Shown one piece after another: positions 4,435-35,670 of a DNA stretch of 64,000 bases. The notes under the pieces are model-generated. The model was not told the origin of the DNA. It searched no databases and saw only the letters and a list, made by a program, of their open reading frames with translations. The position numbers were made by a program, and so were the translations under genes. This stretch comes from Phragmitibacter flavus (GTDB lineage Bacteria; Verrucomicrobiota; Verrucomicrobiia; Verrucomicrobiales; Verrucomicrobiaceae): contig NZ_VAUV01000007.1 in the NCBI RefSeq assembly GCF_005780165.1, positions 1 through 64,000 of the forward strand, read 5' to 3'. Each line of letters begins with the position of its first letter. The stretch's first letter is position 1.

Positions 4435-4935
4435 GTGGAAAGGATTTGGAGCGTTGGAACTGTCAGTTGGACCGCTCCAATTGGATTCGGTAGGGTTGTA
4501 GAAAGCATTTGCCGCGTTCCAAAGCGGATTTGGAGGGTTCCAAAGGCGAAGTGTCGCTTTCCAGGAGGGAGTTGGGAGTTCCAAATCGAATTTGGAAGGC
4601 TCAAAAAGGGATTTGGAAGGCGACAGAAGGGAATGACGACGTTCCAAAAGGCATTTGGAGGGTTCCAAAAGAGAATTGCGCTGTTCCAAATGCGAGTTGC
4701 AGGGTTACAAGAGGGCGTTTGAGCGCGGCAAAAGATATTTGGAGCGTTACAAAAAGGAAGTGGAAGGTTCCAAATTGGATTTGGAAAGGCGCAGAAGGGA
4801 GTTGAAGGGCTACAAAAGGGATTTTCGATGTTCCCAAGGGAGTTGGAAGGTTCCGATTCAGATTTGGAGAATTCCAAAAGCGATTTGGGATGGGCAAATT
4901 GGCGCTTACATGGTTCAGATTCCAATGGTCTGACA
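4435..4935. repeat. Degenerate 21-bp tandem repeat array
   Basis: About 24 imperfect units of 21 bp, each built around TTCCAAA-n-ATTTGGA, so each unit is itself partly palindromic. The 21-bp period equals seven codons, and several frames on both strands are free of stops: plus-strand reading gives charged heptads (LEGSKRE-like), minus-strand reading gives N-P-F-W-N heptads. No frame has a good ribosome binding site or a non-repeat domain, so I treat it as a DNA repeat rather than a gene. It ends just before the AT-rich region leading into the cassette array. Confidence 0.75.
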
Positions 4936-5002
4936 CACAGACAGTAATTGTCTTTCCCGCGATATTGATCCCTTGATACTATCAAGAATTTTGTTATTTG
5001 AA

Positions 5003-5074
5003 GTGTTAAATAACACGCAAATCCTCGCCTAAATCTCCATTTTTGAAGAATAACACCCGAATATCCGTGTTATT
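5003..5074. promoter_or_regulatory. Two AT-rich palindromes sharing GTGTTA / TAACAC
   Basis: 5003-5016 is a perfect palindrome (GTGTTA, two bases, TAACAC). At 5049-5074 AATAACAC and GTGTTATT face each other across 10 nt. The same hexamer thus occurs four times in alternating orientation in 72 bp, in a stretch far more AT-rich than its surroundings and 90 bp upstream of the first cassette. It could be a binding site for a regulator or recombinase (attI-like region), or the second palindrome could be a terminator (TTTT follows). Confidence 0.45.
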
Positions 5075-5178
5075 TTGCAGCCCCAATTCAGTTTGATCTC
5101 GATAAATCGACAAATTTGAAACATATAGGGTGATATTATTCTACAAAACGTTGTATTAACCTTCTGTTCGCTCAAATA

Positions 5179-5937
5179 ATGATTCCGAGATTGAAACTGA
5201 TCTCCCTACTGCCGCAGCTGATTGGTTTTGATCATCCCACTCTTTCGGAGGTGAGAAAGGTGATCTCCAAAGGCAAGGTCTCGTTTTCCGCTTTAACCCA
5301 TCGATCACAGCTTTCCGACCTCAATAAGAATCAGGTCGCACTTGGATTCGCCTTCAACGCGGCCAAGGTTCCACTAATTCCTACAGCACCGACTATTGAT
5401 TTTCCTTTGGCCCCTTTGGTGGCGAATGGGCGCCAACCGATTTCCACTCGACTGTTTATTGTTGATGGCTGGCTCTGGCGCCTAGTTTGCGAAGCACCCG
5501 CACGTCGATTCCCGCGGCTTTCGGTGCTTCATTACTCCGTGGACGATGGTTGGGATCCGGCTGGTGTTCCGATCTTGACCGAGCGTGACTACTCCGCGCT
5601 GACTTCTTCATTGCACGACTGGATTCGTGAGACGGCAGGAGAAAGACCGAACGGCGATCCTCAGTTCGAACTTCCGGGACTGCCAGATCTTGAATGTCTT
5701 TTTCAGCTATACAAGACAGTTCAGATTGGTGAGTGGACATGGGAAGCTCCCGACGGCAACTCCGAGATCATTATTGACGACAATCAGTTCATTGTCGTAG
5801 CCCGAGATGATGAGGGCAACTATCTTGCGATACGTAACAGCATGGATTCTATTTGGGAGCTTTCTCATGATGAGGCCCAGCCGATCAACCGCGGCAGCGA
5901 CCTTCGCGAGATCCTGTCGTCAGCGAAACCGGAGTGA
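5179..5937 (+). CDS. Cassette 1 protein, unknown, possibly SMI1/KNR4 (SUKH)-like
   Basis: 252 residues, soluble. The ATG lies 13 bp after the cassette start GTTCGCTC and the stop codon is inside the attC 5' core, as is normal for cassettes. The C-terminal part (about 170-245: short acidic strands, a DDNQFIVVARDDEGNYL segment, then I-W-E-L-S-H-D) has the look of SUKH/SMI1-KNR4 immunity-type proteins, but this is a pattern impression only. Compact spacing and the lower GC than neighbouring chromosomal genes support acquisition as a cassette. Confidence 0.65.
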   Translation: MIPRLKLISLLPQLIGFDHPTLSEVRKVISKGKVSFSALTHRSQLSDLNKNQVALGFAFNAAKVPLIPTAPTIDFPLAPLVANGRQPISTRLFIVDGWLWRLVCEAPARRFPRLSVLHYSVDDGWDPAGVPILTERDYSALTSSLHDWIRETAGERPNGDPQFELPGLPDLECLFQLYKTVQIGEWTWEAPDGNSEIIIDDNQFIVVARDDEGNYLAIRNSMDSIWELSHDEAQPINRGSDLREILSSAKPE

Positions 5938-6058
5938 ACAAGTCGTGGATGATCAATCCCCAACCGCTGTGCGGTTGACGCTCGTAGGCAATTCGAGCAT
6001 CATTATTTCAATCCATCCGCCCGCTCGGTCGGGGATGACATCACTTAAACGTTGTGCC
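5932..6058 (+). other. attC-like recombination site 1
   Basis: The 5' core GAGTGAAC (5932-5939) matches the reverse complement of the cassette start GTTCGCTC (5166-5173) except for one base. The inner arms AAGTCGTGGATGATC and GGGGATGACATCACTT can pair with extrahelical bases. The site ends in GTTGTGCC, whose last seven bases belong to the next cassette. Confidence 0.7.
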
Positions 6059-6065
6059 AAGAATT

Positions 6066-6359
6066 ATGAGACTCCCATCTGGCGTTAGCGGCGCAATCCG
6101 AACATTTTCGTATTTCATGTCGAGCGGCACCCACTACATGCTGGAAGGCGTCGACTACATCGACCTCTACGGATCTGAGCCGAGCGCTATCGAGTTGTGC
6201 TATGCGATTTTTGCCAACGTATTGGAATACGACGAGGAAGGGAACGTGACGAATTTGAAGCATGCTGAGAAGAGGGCGACTGATTCGATACGCGCATACT
6301 GCGACTCAAGCTTTTCGGTTGTGCCTGCCTACGAAGACTGGGAGATCGAGCTTCACTAA
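6066..6359 (+). CDS. Cassette 2 small conserved hypothetical protein
   Basis: 97 residues from ATG 6066 (a GTG at 6054, inside the cassette core, would add four). It begins MRLPSGVSGAIRTFSYFM and contains the run LYGSEPSAIELCYAIFANV, then a short charged C-terminus. It resembles a small DUF family (DUF7677-like in my memory, not verifiable here). It is cytosolic with no known function. It is the only gene between attC sites 1 and 2, in the sense expected for a cassette. Confidence 0.65.
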   Translation: MRLPSGVSGAIRTFSYFMSSGTHYMLEGVDYIDLYGSEPSAIELCYAIFANVLEYDEEGNVTNLKHAEKRATDSIRAYCDSSFSVVPAYEDWEIELH

Positions 6360-6383
6360 TGCACGAGACACGAGACAACAACG

Positions 6384-6474
6384 GGCACAACAAGCCGCTC
6401 CATCCAACGGCGGGTAACACTCCTGTTTGAATTCAGGCTTCCATCCCCGCCGTGGATGAGCTAGACGTTAGCTT
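6384..6474 (+). other. attC-like recombination site 2
   Basis: The 5' core GGCACAAC (6384-6391) is the perfect reverse complement of the cassette start GTTGTGCC (6051-6058). The inner arms GCTCCATCC-A-ACGGCGGG and CCCGCCGTGGATGAGC pair with one bulged base, the hallmark extrahelical base of attC hairpins. Ends in GTTAGCTT. Confidence 0.8.
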
Positions 6475-6479
6475 AAAAA

Positions 6480-6962
6480 ATGACACAAGACGAACTCACT
6501 GAGATTTTCCGCAGGCTGGGCGTGAGCAATCCCGCATCATGGGCAAGTTCTCAGATTAACGAAGGAATTCCTCAGCTTGGGCGATTTTTGGTGATTCGTG
6601 CGATGTGGGATTGCGTCACCCGCGCGGGGACGACGAATTGGATCGACTATGAATTGAAGCATTCGGCTGATACCCCGCACGCGAAGGCTCTGCAACAGAT
6701 GCTCGACGCCGGAGTGAGCAGGGAGGCGATGACGGAGCTCGTTAGATTCAAGCAGGCTGAATCGCTTCGCGAGGTTTGCTATCTCCTTGAGGATTACACC
6801 TCCGTTCCGCAGAATTCGAATCCTGATACAGGAGAGGAATACGTCCGATGGAGTCTGCGCCAGTTGGATACGGAAGACCAACCGATGGCGTGGCCTATAG
6901 ATGGTTTACACGAGTCCTTCTGGAGCCTCGATCCTGCGCTGCCCGAGAACCAACAAAGCTAA
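6480..6962 (+). CDS. Cassette 3 hypothetical protein
   Basis: 160 residues, soluble, helix-rich in the first 110 (a region MLDAGVSREAMTELVRFKQ), ending in a GLHESFW-x-LDP motif. That ending recalls uncharacterised proteins of Planctomycetes and Verrucomicrobia in which GLHESV-x-x-x-DPTG is the end. Function unknown. The ATG is only 6 bp past the GTTAGCTT cassette boundary, and the TAA overlaps the 5' core of attC 3. Confidence 0.65.
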   Translation: MTQDELTEIFRRLGVSNPASWASSQINEGIPQLGRFLVIRAMWDCVTRAGTTNWIDYELKHSADTPHAKALQQMLDAGVSREAMTELVRFKQAESLREVCYLLEDYTSVPQNSNPDTGEEYVRWSLRQLDTEDQPMAWPIDGLHESFWSLDPALPENQQS

Positions 6963-7015
6963 CAAGGCGTGGAGCTCAAGGGCTTTCAGCCCTGAGCTCA
7001 CTTCAATGTTCTGTG
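6956..7015 (+). other. attC-like recombination site 3
   Basis: A short 60-bp site. AAGCTAAC (6956-6963) is the perfect reverse complement of GTTAGCTT (6467-6474). The centre is a near-perfect hairpin: GAGCTCAAGGGCT, two bases, AGCCCTGAGCTC. Almost the same hairpin and flanks are in attC 4, so these two cassettes share an attC type. The hairpin is not followed by a T run, which argues against a terminator. Confidence 0.85.
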
Positions 7016-7019
7016 AAAA

Positions 7020-7529
7020 ATGATGACTGCTGAAACGCCAGAGAAGCTCTTTTCGCGGATTACCGATCGCATGTCACTCTACGACGCTGGCACCTTCATC
7101 TTGGGCCTGGACGACGGAGACCTCTCGGAAGCCCAACGGGATTTCAAGCGTTGCTACGACCTCTGGCTCGGACTCGGGAACGGATTTTCAGATGTCTGCA
7201 ACGGAACCTACCTCTCGAGCTTGCCCCGTGGTGTCGCCGCCTTCGAGAGACTCGGCGTGGCGACAATCGCAATTCCTGGAAGGCTTGTTCTCGCTCAGTT
7301 TGAAAGTCGGAATTTACCGACTACGGAGGAAGAGATTTCAGACTTCATTCTGGATGACGCTGACCTTGAGCGGCTTCGCCGTGCTATCGAGAAGATCGAT
7401 GCGGAGTTTATAGATCAAATCTGGAACGACGGAGACAATATCGAGCAGAGCTTGATTACGCTTGCGTCGCGTCGCACACAACAAACCACCACAGAACAAG
7501 GCGTGAGACTCAAGGGCTTTCAGCCCTGA
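7020..7529 (+). CDS. Cassette 4 protein, possibly DMP19/DUF4375-like
   Basis: 169 residues. The N-terminal half is helical; the middle (NGFSDVCNGTYLSSLPRG, then A-A-F-E-R-L-G-V-A) resembles the N-G-x-x-x-x-x-x-N-S/T ... A-L-x-x-I-G-A pattern of the DMP19/DUF4375 family, some members of which are DNA mimics. This is tentative. The last eight codons lie inside the attC hairpin, so the extreme C-terminus is encoded by the recombination site. ATG codons at 7020 and 7023 both fit. Confidence 0.65.
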   Translation: MMTAETPEKLFSRITDRMSLYDAGTFILGLDDGDLSEAQRDFKRCYDLWLGLGNGFSDVCNGTYLSSLPRGVAAFERLGVATIAIPGRLVLAQFESRNLPTTEEEISDFILDDADLERLRRAIEKIDAEFIDQIWNDGDNIEQSLITLASRRTQQTTTEQGVRLKGFQP

Positions 7530-7549
7530 GTCCACTTCAACGTTCCCCC
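7490..7549 (+). other. attC-like recombination site 4
   Basis: CACAGAAC (7490-7497) is the perfect reverse complement of GTTCTGTG (7008-7015) that opens the same cassette. The central hairpin is nearly the same as in attC 3, with compensating changes in the arms (GACTCAAGGGCT facing AGCCCTGAGTC), so base pairing is conserved while sequence has changed. Ends GTTCCCCC. Confidence 0.85.
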
Positions 7550-7557
7550 AACTTTGC

Positions 7558-8118
7558 ATGGCCAGAATGCTGCCACAAAATCGAGTCGCGTGCATAGGGA
7601 AGATTCGAGAAGCGTTCGATTCCTGTCCCCGACCGACACCCGAACTACTTTCGCCGAATGGCGGCATTGATGGGCCATTCGTCCACAAGAACTGGGGCCA
7701 TCTGACCAGAGACGACGTCGAGGCGCTTGAGTTCTTCGGGCATTCTTTGGGAGAGGACATCACCTACATGAGTTCGGTCGCATTTCGATATTTTGTTCCG
7801 TCAGTGATGATTCTGTTCTTGAGCCGTCCGGACAGCATCGATTTTGGAGGCTTCATTTCGATGGTCAGTCGATGTGAGTCAGCTTTCCAGTGTCGCGCAG
7901 ATGGATACACCTACGGCCAGATTGCAATGACAAGGCCACAGGCCGAGGCTTTCCGCGAATGGTTTGGACAGTTGATGACAATTATACGGAAGTTTGATTT
8001 AGGATCATTTGAGGACGAGTATAAGGGACGGCTGCGTGCTCTCCGATCACGAGCGAAGACTTTCACACCGGACACCGATTATGATGCTTCCACGATTCAA
8101 GCCATCAGGCGGCGATAA
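7558..8118 (+). CDS. Cassette 5 hypothetical protein (possibly DUF6714-like)
   Basis: 186 residues, soluble. It opens with an I-R-E-A-F helix, a proline-rich turn (CPRPTPELL), then HLTRDDVEALEFFGH, followed by a hydrophobic stretch FRYFVPSVMILFL that resembles the A-F-R-Y-Y-L-P-A motif of DUF6714 proteins. The call is tentative. The start of this cassette, including the first 30 or so codons, is present again in truncated form at 9941-10037. ATG 7558 lies 16 bp after the cassette boundary. Confidence 0.6.
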   Translation: MARMLPQNRVACIGKIREAFDSCPRPTPELLSPNGGIDGPFVHKNWGHLTRDDVEALEFFGHSLGEDITYMSSVAFRYFVPSVMILFLSRPDSIDFGGFISMVSRCESAFQCRADGYTYGQIAMTRPQAEAFREWFGQLMTIIRKFDLGSFEDEYKGRLRALRSRAKTFTPDTDYDASTIQAIRRR

Positions 8119-8129
8119 ACGCCCACCAA

Positions 8130-8173
8130 GGGCGAACGCTCAAGGCGCTGGTGCCAACCAACGGGGCTGCTGG
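8130..8173 (+). other. Left part of an interrupted attC site (site 5)
   Basis: GGGCGAAC (8130-8137) is the 5' core expected for the cassette 5 family: the second copy of this cassette begins with its perfect complement GTTCGCCC at 9941, and the 7542 copy differs at one base. The arm sequence that follows is cut off near 8173 by the repeat-bounded insert. A plausible 3' core reappears at 8855 (GTTCGCC). Confidence 0.55.
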
Positions 8174-8846
8174 GAGACAATATTTGTCAGACACTATTTG
8201 TCTGTCCCTTGATACCGCGAATTTTTTCTTCCCTTTGTCGTCGCCATCTCCTAATACTGGCAGCTTTAACCCCCATTTATTCTCTTATGTTTGGAGTCTA
8301 TCTATCCTATTGGACCACGGTGTGCGTGATCCTGATCGCGATCATCATCGTGGCATCGCTGTCGGAGACGCCGTCTCGCCGCCGCTACCTGATCGCTGCA
8401 TGGTCATTTGCCATTCTGAGTTTTGGCTCTGTGTTGATACGGGTATTTCCTCTATTTTTTGACATCCAGATGGCGAACGCCTTTGGACCCCGTTCGATGT
8501 CTTCCGCGGCCTACATTTTCCCTATCTTTGTTATCCTCGCTTTCGGATATCCAGCATTGAGTCTGTTTCCGTTCATGTCAGCCGAGACGGGCCGGAAGGT
8601 GGTTTTGGCGATTGTGGGCTTGGTGGTTCTGTGGTCGACGTTTTTGTTTCTCAGGACGATGATCCGCTGGCCGCAAAGTCAGGGCGGTGGCCCTGTGGCG
8701 GCGATCATGGCCTATTTTTATCTGCTGCTTTGGTGGCGGGTCTATGATCTGCGCCGTGCGACGGATGAATCCACCTAGAGCTTGGTCTCTGTTAAAGAAC
8801 AGGTTGCAAAAAGACAGGGGACAACTAAGGGACGGACAATTAGAGC
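8174..8846. mobile_element. Putative 670-bp insert with imperfect terminal inverted repeats
   Basis: The left end 8189-8210 and right end 8827-8846 are inverted relative to each other (16 of 20 bases match, core GTCCCTT / AAGGGAC). A small palindrome (GACAATATTTGTC) lies just outside the left end. The insert splits attC site 5 and carries one membrane-protein gene but no transposase. A third copy of the left end, differing from it at 3 of 22 bases, is at 10038-10059, exactly where the second cassette 5 copy is cut. Confidence 0.5.
8209..8778 (+). CDS. Small integral membrane protein, unknown
   Basis: 189 residues from a TTG at 8209; ATG 8287 (MFGVYLSYW) is the more likely start and shortens it by 26. 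About five hydrophobic helices (VCVILIAIIIVASL, SFAILSFGSVLIRVFPLFF, IFPIFVILAFGYPALSLF, VVLAIVGLVVLWSTFLFL, AAIMAYFYLLLWW) are linked by short polar loops. No family is recognised. It is the only gene in the insert that interrupts attC site 5. Confidence 0.55.
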   Translation: MIPRIFSSLCRRHLLILAALTPIYSLMFGVYLSYWTTVCVILIAIIIVASLSETPSRRRYLIAAWSFAILSFGSVLIRVFPLFFDIQMANAFGPRSMSSAAYIFPIFVILAFGYPALSLFPFMSAETGRKVVLAIVGLVVLWSTFLFLRTMIRWPQSQGGGPVAAIMAYFYLLLWWRVYDLRRATDEST

Positions 8847-8882
8847 AAATTGACGTTCGCCAAGAATAAATCGCTTTCCAGA

Positions 8883-9326
8883 ATGAGTTTCCTTTATCCA
8901 GCTCTCGGACTCGTTGCGGGCTTGCTCCTGATGGTAGCAGCCTATTATTCGTATGCTTGCTTCTCTTGGCTACATCTGCGGAAGATGGTTTGGGATTCGC
9001 TACCCGTGACCCCAGCCGTCCCCCATCGAAGACTGAGCACCTTCATTGCCCACCGAGTCGAGATGGGTTCCTCATTCTTCGCCATACGAGATTGCTTCTT
9101 GAGGGTGACATCCAACCTAGGCGGGATCAGCCTGCAACCATGGCTTCCTGTGCCTCGCACATCTTGCATATTCCTCACATGGGCCGATCTCTCCAGCATT
9201 GGGATTCGTCCTCCTCATCATTTGCTCGGCGCTACAGTTGGTGGCATATCGATTACGGTCTGGGTCACGCCCCGGCAGCTTGAGATTCTCCGGAATGACG
9301 GCTTTGGTGCCTTCCTGCACCACTAG
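8883..9326 (+). CDS. Cassette 6 protein with one N-terminal membrane helix
   Basis: 147 residues from ATG 8883. An in-frame TTG at 8850 lies before the cassette boundary GTTCGCC (8855) and is unlikely. Residues about 4-26 (YPALGLVAGLLLMVAAYYS) form a membrane anchor; the rest is a compact domain with R-x-x-S-T-F-I-A-H-R-V and a C-terminal TPRQLEILRNDGFG. No family recognised. The domain is probably exposed to one side of the inner membrane. Confidence 0.55.
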   Translation: MSFLYPALGLVAGLLLMVAAYYSYACFSWLHLRKMVWDSLPVTPAVPHRRLSTFIAHRVEMGSSFFAIRDCFLRVTSNLGGISLQPWLPVPRTSCIFLTWADLSSIGIRPPHHLLGATVGGISITVWVTPRQLEILRNDGFGAFLHH

Positions 9327-9341
9327 CCAACAAACCCAATC

Positions 9342-9431
9342 AGCGAACAAGCCGGCACATGCGACGCCGAGGAAGCCGTCTGATGAATTTTGGGCGCTTG
9401 CCCCGGCGCCGCATGGCCTCTAACGTTCGGC
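9342..9431 (+). other. attC-like recombination site 6
   Basis: The 5' core AGCGAAC pairs with the cassette start GTTCGCC with one mismatch. The inner arms GGCACATGCGACGCC and GGCGCCGCATGGCC pair with bulges, and the site ends CTAACGTTCGGC. About 90 bp, a typical attC length. Confidence 0.75.
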
Positions 9432-9438
9432 AGAGAAT

Positions 9439-9813
9439 ATGAACCACAGCCAAGTTCAGAGTCTTGAAGGGCGGATCGGAGTTGCCCTACCAACCGCCTA
9501 TCGTGACTACTTCATCAGTGCCACCGACAAACTCCTTGAGGATGCCATCATATTCGAGTCTCCGAGGTCTGGAGTGATCGATGAGATCCTTACAGCGGAA
9601 GATGTGCTGCGGAACGACGAAGAGGGGCGTATGGGCATCCCGGAGAAATCTCTGTTACACATAGGAGGGAACTTGCTTGGTGGCTACCTCTACCTCGATT
9701 TGTCCCCCGAGGGGTTTGGGAAGTTGCTCTACATGGAGAGCTACACTTTCAAGGAGACATTCGCGTCGTTTGAGGCTCTGCTGTCTGAGCCGAGGGAGAA
9801 CCGAGAAGAATAA
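9439..9813 (+). CDS. Cassette 7 SMI1/KNR4 (SUKH) family protein
   Basis: 124 residues. It starts with an L-E-x-R-I-G-V-A-L-P-x-x-Y-R-D-Y helix, the classic opening of SMI1/KNR4 (SUKH) domains, and continues with GNLLGGYLYLDLSPEG, the G-D-x-x-x-x-D strand-turn region where this family ends its core. SUKH proteins are frequently immunity proteins against contact-dependent or polymorphic toxins. No toxin gene is adjacent, so here it may be an orphan immunity gene. The start is 14 bp past the cassette boundary. Confidence 0.8.
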   Translation: MNHSQVQSLEGRIGVALPTAYRDYFISATDKLLEDAIIFESPRSGVIDEILTAEDVLRNDEEGRMGIPEKSLLHIGGNLLGGYLYLDLSPEGFGKLLYMESYTFKETFASFEALLSEPRENREE

Positions 9814-9820
9814 CCGGAAT

Positions 9821-9948
9821 GCCGAACAAAGCGCATCGTGCAACCACTACCAGCCGTTCAGTTTCGATGATTTCACCTGATTACAACCTCAACCCCGTGA
9901 TCGACGTGTGCCGCCGCTGGTAGTGGTGCATGCGCTCATCGTTCGCCC
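9821..9948 (+). other. attC-like recombination site 7
   Basis: GCCGAAC (9821-9827) is the perfect reverse complement of GTTCGGC (9425-9431) that begins this cassette. Long arms AGCGCAT-C-GTGCAACCACTACCAGC and GCTGGTAGTGGTGCATGCGCT pair over about 20 bp with bulged bases. The terminal GTTCGCCC opens the next, truncated cassette. Confidence 0.85.
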
Positions 9949-10037
9949 AACTTTGCATGGCCAGCGTGCTGCCACAAAATCGACTCGCGTGCATAGAGAA
10001 GATTCGAGAAGCGTTCGATTCCTGCCCCCGACCCGAA
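9941..10037 (+). pseudogene. Truncated second copy of cassette 5
   Basis: 97 bp match 7542-7638 with few changes (for instance GTTCGCCC for GTTCCCCC), covering the cassette start and about 30 codons of the gene. The match stops at 10037 where a copy of the insert-end repeat (10038-10059) begins. The rest of the gene and its attC are gone. Confidence 0.75.
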
Positions 10038-10059
10038 AGACACTATTTGCTCGTCCCTT
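10038..10059. repeat. Solo copy of the insert-end repeat
   Basis: Reads AGACACTATTTG then CTCGTCCCTT; 19 of 22 positions equal 8189-8210. No inverted partner is found downstream of the next gene, so only one end is visible here. Confidence 0.6.
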
Positions 10060-10106
10060 AATTCCGACTATAATGATGTCGCACCAACGGACTTTACGAT
10101 CAAATA

Positions 10107-35315: not shown

Positions 35316-35670
35316 TGGTGGAGGCGAGGGGAGTTGAACCCCTGTCCGAACCATCATCGATGAAAGCGTCTCCATGCTCAGTGAATGATTTAATCTCGAC
35401 TCGGGAGCTGCCATTCACAGCATCTCCCTCGCCCAGCGTCCTGTTGATCTCGCCTTGGAACCGGTCGCCCGTTCTGTTGGCCAGCCTGTAAGTAGTCACC
35501 CCTCCACTGACCAGGCTTCAGCAGAGGAATGTCGCTGTCAATTAAGCAGCGAGTGCGAGCTCGTTAGAGTTTGCATTTAGAGTTGTTGATTCGATTTTTA
35601 ACGCGGCCAACGAATCATCCGCGGCATGCAGCCTTCACTTCAGATCGCCCGTCGAAACCAGAACGCCCCC
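35316..35670 (-). ncRNA. ssrA: Transfer-messenger RNA (tmRNA)
   Basis: 355 nt. The minus-strand 5' end GGGGGCGTTCTGGTTTCGAC is the tmRNA consensus start, and the 3' end GGTTCAACTCCCC then CGCCTCCACCA carries the T-arm, acceptor strand and encoded CCA. The acceptor pairs GGGGGCG with CGCCTCC. The tag frame is at 35542-35574 and encodes ANSNELALAA followed by TAA; the C-terminal LAA is the usual degradation signal for ClpXP. It rescues stalled ribosomes with SmpB, which is not in the window. One-piece (not permuted) form. Confidence 0.95.

Follow-up and report, generated by a model that had tools for sequence, protein, structure and literature searches.

An integron cassette array that probably has an attI of its own, one of nine such arrays dispersed in a Verrucomicrobial chromosome

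The question raised by this locus is how an array of integron gene cassettes comes to stand in a chromosome with no integrase beside it. The window, by which we mean the whole stretch of 64,000 nucleotides that was analysed, had been predicted to carry an orphan cassette cluster of the CALIN type in a Verrucomicrobial host, and the host was named correctly. As a local description the orphan CALIN holds, in that there are attC sites without an intI. It is incomplete because an attI-like leader at 4978-5165 had been missed, and at the level of the genome the arrangement is one of dispersed attI-headed arrays, one of them with a truncated intI start. Our data indicate that the region is probably a cassette array with its own attI and one of nine attI-headed arrays dispersed in one Verrucomicrobial chromosome. 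The anatomy and polarity of the attC sites, the matching ends of the cassettes and a multi-copy leader that ends at the cassette boundary were observed directly, as were one 5′ intI stub, an assembly with no intact intI and the same arrangement in relatives.

Re-derivation of the map from the sequence gave seven cassettes and a truncated eighth at 5166-10036, all on the plus strand, with six complete attC sites and one broken attC. The predicted six attC-like sites and one split site were thereby reproduced in coordinates and cores, and the units are genuine cassettes, all in the same orientation. The features are the following:

4978-5168, plus strand: attI-like leader, ending at the GTT (5166-5168) that starts cassette 1
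5166-6050, plus strand: cassette 1, ORF 5179-5937 (252 aa, without Pfam family) and attC 5933-6057
6051-6466, plus strand: cassette 2, ORF 6066-6359 (97 aa, DUF7677, Pfam PF24725) and attC 6385-6473
6467-7007, plus strand: cassette 3, ORF 6480-6962 (160 aa, without Pfam family) and attC 6957-7014
7008-7541, plus strand: cassette 4, ORF 7020-7529 (169 aa, without Pfam family) and attC 7491-7548
7542-8854, plus strand: cassette 5, ORF 7558-8118 (186 aa, without Pfam family), attC interrupted
8178-8843, plus strand: probable insert of about 670 bp that interrupts the attC of cassette 5; REP-like ends in inverted orientation, and an ORF to 8778 resembling a membrane protein
8855-9424, plus strand: cassette 6, ORF 8850/8883-9326 (without Pfam family) and attC 9342-9431
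9425-9940, plus strand: cassette 7, ORF 9439-9813 (124 aa, SMI1/KNR4 SUKH-1) and attC 9821-9947
9941-10036, plus strand: cassette 8 remnant, repeating the start of cassette 5 in truncated form

The attC sites are imperfect inverted repeats with R″/R′ cores and with extrahelical bases on one arm, as in an integron array. One layout (NNNNAAC, 2-5 nt, stem, spacer, GTT) is common to all six complete sites, and in all six the 5′ arm of the top strand carries extra bases near the start of the stem; in five of the six an extrahelical A follows the first extra base at a distance of 5-6 nt and is a T on the bottom strand. An extrahelical T on the bottom strand is the canonical polarity of attC. When both strands of the 64 kb were scanned with a strict detector, defined as this layout with the extrahelical bases required, exactly six sites were found on the plus strand and none on the minus strand (0.135 expected), and none of 200 shuffles reached six sites or gave more than two. 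Chance inverted repeats were ruled out as the source of the sites by the shuffles and the reverse-strand control. A covariance model was trained on 18 attC sites from other genomes, most of them beside intI in the same family and none from the window, that had been picked by the same strict detector, so that base-pair counts lean towards the structure. With the filters off, the six window sites were the top-ranked matches (60.7, 45.3, 36.7, 34.6, 21.9 and 17.4 bits), and with default filters three of the six were recovered. The bottom strands of the sites folded with z-scores of -2.4 to -4.3. Both the covariance search and the folding upheld the predicted sites.

In an integron array the 5′ end of each cassette is also complementary to its own 3′ core, reflecting the circular form, and this pairing was found here. 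The comparison of each start with the reverse complement of its own 3′ core gave 8/8 matching bases in cassettes 2, 3, 4 and 7, 7/8 in cassettes 1 and 5, and 6/8 in cassette 6, the weakest. Over the five variable core bases of the seven cassettes, 31 of 35 matched their own partner, a value reached by two of the 5040 partner permutations, the true one included (permutation mean 15.7); the pairing that had been claimed is confirmed.

The broken attC of cassette 5 retains its 5′ half from 8130 (GGGCGAAC), and its 3′ arm was lost at the insert. The insert is single copy in the genome; its REP-like ends are of the AGACACTATTTGTCTGTCCCTT type, and a similar stretch occurs at 10038-10066. The cassette 8 remnant is 93% identical to the start of cassette 5 over 98 bp (7537-7634 and 9936-10033), and it carries GTTCGCCC, to which the GGGCGAAC core of cassette 5 is exactly complementary. 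The better core (GTTCGCCC) is the one kept by this truncated copy, which stands at the end of the array. A tmRNA gene (Rfam RF00023) lies at 35316-35670 on the minus strand, distant from the array.

The only Pfam families in the cargo are DUF7677 (cassette 2) and SUKH-1 (cassette 7), which agrees with the predicted content of genes mostly without known function plus a SUKH protein, and PADLOC and NCBIfam searches of the cargo proteins gave no matches. A relative of the DUF7677 protein (74%) is encoded on a different Verrucomicrobial contig (L011), with an attC site on either side of it, which indicates that this gene travels as a cassette elsewhere. Relatives at 89-90% are found in Verrucomicrobiaceae MAG contigs (L009 and L010) in which the model found no attC; in these the gene is present outside cassettes.

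The leader of about 190 bp (4978-5165) lies directly left of cassette 1 and contains an AAC-N5-GTT core pair and an inverted repeat, AATAACAC-N10-GTGTTATT. Twelve BLAST matches to it, itself included, were found in its own genome. Positions 4978-5182 of the window are repeated upstream of other arrays, and the alignments stop at the GTT of the first cassette or a few bases past it, the copies being conserved up to CTGTT and divergent beyond. Nine copies end exactly at GTT, each followed by a different cassette and by same-strand attC sites, so that the leader recurs at eight other cassette-bearing loci. Two further copies are decayed and without the GTT, with no attC found within 1.5 kb, and the twelfth match is a 34-bp fragment. 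The stretch shared at the nine array heads is about 105-190 bp long and ends at the insertion point, and the nine copies are 71-94% alike over their last ~105 bp. On contig C23 the array region holds a pair of attI copies separated by 5.7 kb.

The leader copy on contig C8 has upstream of it a divergent intI start, MNPSNKIKLEARLREAIRQRHYSIRTEDCYV, which then breaks off and which aligns to residues 1-31 of the IntI of a relative (tblastn E about 0.02). This is the only copy in the genome with a clear intI stub; a degraded intI trace was read by eye at the copy on contig C3. In ordinary integrons intI stands divergent from attI, at the position seen on contig C8, and it is this position of the stub that identifies the leader as an attI. 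From its homology to the stub-bearing copy and its place at the GTT, the leader at 4978-5165 is a putative attI at the head of the array, as is found in complete integrons. Between the stub and the attI on contig C8 lies a TGTTC-N4-GAACA palindrome, one of eight in the genome and a putative SOS box; we take this sequence to be the Verrucomicrobial LexA box. A search for a cassette promoter (Pc) at 4900-5300 of the window, which covered promoters of the sigma-70 type, gave no match. Degenerate repeats of ~21 bp (ttccaaaagggatttggaagg) occupy 4500-4900, left of the leader, and are open on both strands.

The genome has roughly 60 attC sites, spread over about 12 places: beside the six of the window, ~58 were found by the covariance model on the array strand in eleven other regions (E up to about 0.01). 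Four of the array places (contigs C1, C4, C6 and C9) have no recognisable leader. A profile search of the assembly with TIGR02249 found no intact IntI, nothing scoring over the cut-off, and none of the TIGR02249 matches of the genome falls in positions 1-64000, in keeping with the claim that no tyrosine recombinase is encoded there. The array thus has at least two attC sites without a neighbouring intI, as a CALIN does, and it is not adjoined by the intact intI of a complete integron. The best IntI-like gene of the genome (C23:38020-38880) was rejected as the missing integrase: it adjoins an IS91-type HUH transposase ORF, and profile positions about 180-227 are missing from its TIGR02249 matches. 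This IS91-like pair (L080 2835-4911; a 374-aa HUH transposase ORF and a 309-aa recombinase) has inserted into a different cassette array of this genome.

The leader type of this genome was absent from the other 67 family genomes and from about 130 further genomes of the order. Among the 68 family genomes, IntI was over the cut-off in 24 and attC was present in 63, and the core pattern of a different, unrelated attI type was found in 29, commonly in 2-7 copies; the reversed control of this pattern gave no matches in the 68. The pattern also matches in a sister family. Many of the relatives' attI copies carry the 5′ part of intI as stubs of about 19-108 codons, or a full-length intI. In the genome G009, 124-411 bp adjoining the only intact intI recur at the heads of three other arrays; these attI copies are 98-100% identical, their first cassettes are all different, and two of the three orphan copies retain 54 or about 105 intI codons. 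Repeated leaders are also present in genomes G003, G002 and G045. At 18 of 25 attI-headed loci the start of the first cassette matched its own attC core exactly (permutation mean 4.7, maximum 13 in 20000 permutations), as expected if cassettes were inserted at attI by site-specific recombination. Draft assemblies break at arrays, and copies at contig ends therefore count less; the argument rests on internal copies, namely those of G009 on C11 and C22, those of G045 (235 kb-1.26 Mb contigs), and most copies of the window's own genome.

These observations are consistent with a mechanism in which an integron integrase would have put circular cassettes, by way of the folded bottom strands of their attC sites, into these attI sites. 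The attI sites would have arisen by copying of an intI-attI platform in which intI was then truncated. The truncated platforms would have kept the attI and possibly also a cassette promoter, and a later loss of the last intact integrase would have left the arrays frozen. Two routes of copying were considered for G009 and set aside. Circles made by IntI that carry attI are unsupported, because two copies have left junctions elsewhere than at G|TT and the third has an IS insertion there. Duplication of entire arrays as segments was rejected because the arrays share attI, with no cassette homology listed outside attC. Trans action by one integrase on dispersed attI platforms is plausible, and for at least one relative (G009) one integrase likely served all sites in trans. 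As a general account of the integron in these Verrucomicrobiota, we offer more tentatively, as something that may hold, a dispersed network in which attI, often together with an intI stub, multiplies around the chromosome as independent docking platforms served in trans by one integrase that is sometimes later lost.

The same stubs can be read in another way, namely that the arrays began as complete integrons, each served in cis by an intI of its own and each either acquired or duplicated as a whole, and that the integrases were lost independently. The varying length of the intI stubs beside many attI copies fits this account, as does genus g8, in which the attI copies interleave among species and group across them rather than within the genome, so that some may be what is left of integrons acquired separately. 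In G009, G003 and G062 the copies group within the genome, and the two patterns together indicate contributions both from amplification in situ and from inheritance or acquisition. Independent loss sits poorly with a leader type that occurs in no other family or order genome searched and whose copies are 71-94% alike, and with G009, where nearly identical copies accompany a single intact intI and yet head different cassettes. We regard this account as possible, on the doubtful side. That an integrase exists and was missed, in an unassembled gap or on a plasmid, so that the arrays are still live, is unlikely: the genome is a draft of 44 contigs in which a gap could still hold intI, and IntI is common in relatives, but completeness is 99.89%, the best tyrosine recombinase match is the IS91-associated one on contig C23, the intI stub is truncated, and decay is visible in cassettes 5 and 8 and in the insert at 8178-8843. 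Least probable is off-target insertion at chromosomal attG-like sites followed by integrase loss, with the shared leader a coincidence, which the leaderless arrays on four contigs and the known origins of CALINs (off-target insertion, intI loss and rearrangement; PMC8618304) would allow, whereas random attG sites would have only a few bases in common and not the long stretch, in one case with an intI start, that ends at the insertion point of nine arrays. The data on the nine arrays with a leader already contradict this account, which could hold for the four others.

The detection of attI by IntegronFinder is limited to class 1, and orphan arrays are consequently classed as CALINs without an attI search. 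If many CALINs are attI-headed platforms, then attI duplication with intI truncation would be a fourth origin of CALINs, and the trans action of IntI on a distant attI would be directly testable, for example in G009. If the trans network is true, cassettes at many loci could be loaded and shuffled by one enzyme. In the part of the literature that was searched, no account of several attI sites dispersed in one genome was found, which is not proof of novelty.

Integrons typically have one attI close to the integrase, and a CALIN is defined by at least two attC sites with no neighbouring intI (PMC9024848). The present locus resembles a CALIN in having several attC sites in one orientation and no intI nearby, and differs in its multi-copy attI-like head, in the presence of nine such arrays in one genome, and in the one intI 5′ stub. 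With the sedentary chromosomal integrons of Vibrio and Xanthomonas it shares an attI and an array of genes mostly of unknown function, and it is canonical in the folding of its attC sites, in their extrahelical bases and in the matching of cores; in contrast to the textbook case of one attI adjoining intI, the attI here is dispersed and an intact intI is absent. The available part of the account of Xanthomonas truncated-intI integrons and CALINs (PMC12444791) likewise describes arrays retained after loss or truncation of intI, but places intI at one ancestral locus (ilvD), and in that part multiple dispersed attI sites are not described. The Delta-attI-type cassettes of mobile integrons (PMC12901181) also have attI sequence outside its normal single place, and there it is recombination-competent; they are resistance cassettes whose recombination site is a partial attI, whereas here attI heads arrays in the chromosome and is often accompanied by an intI stub.
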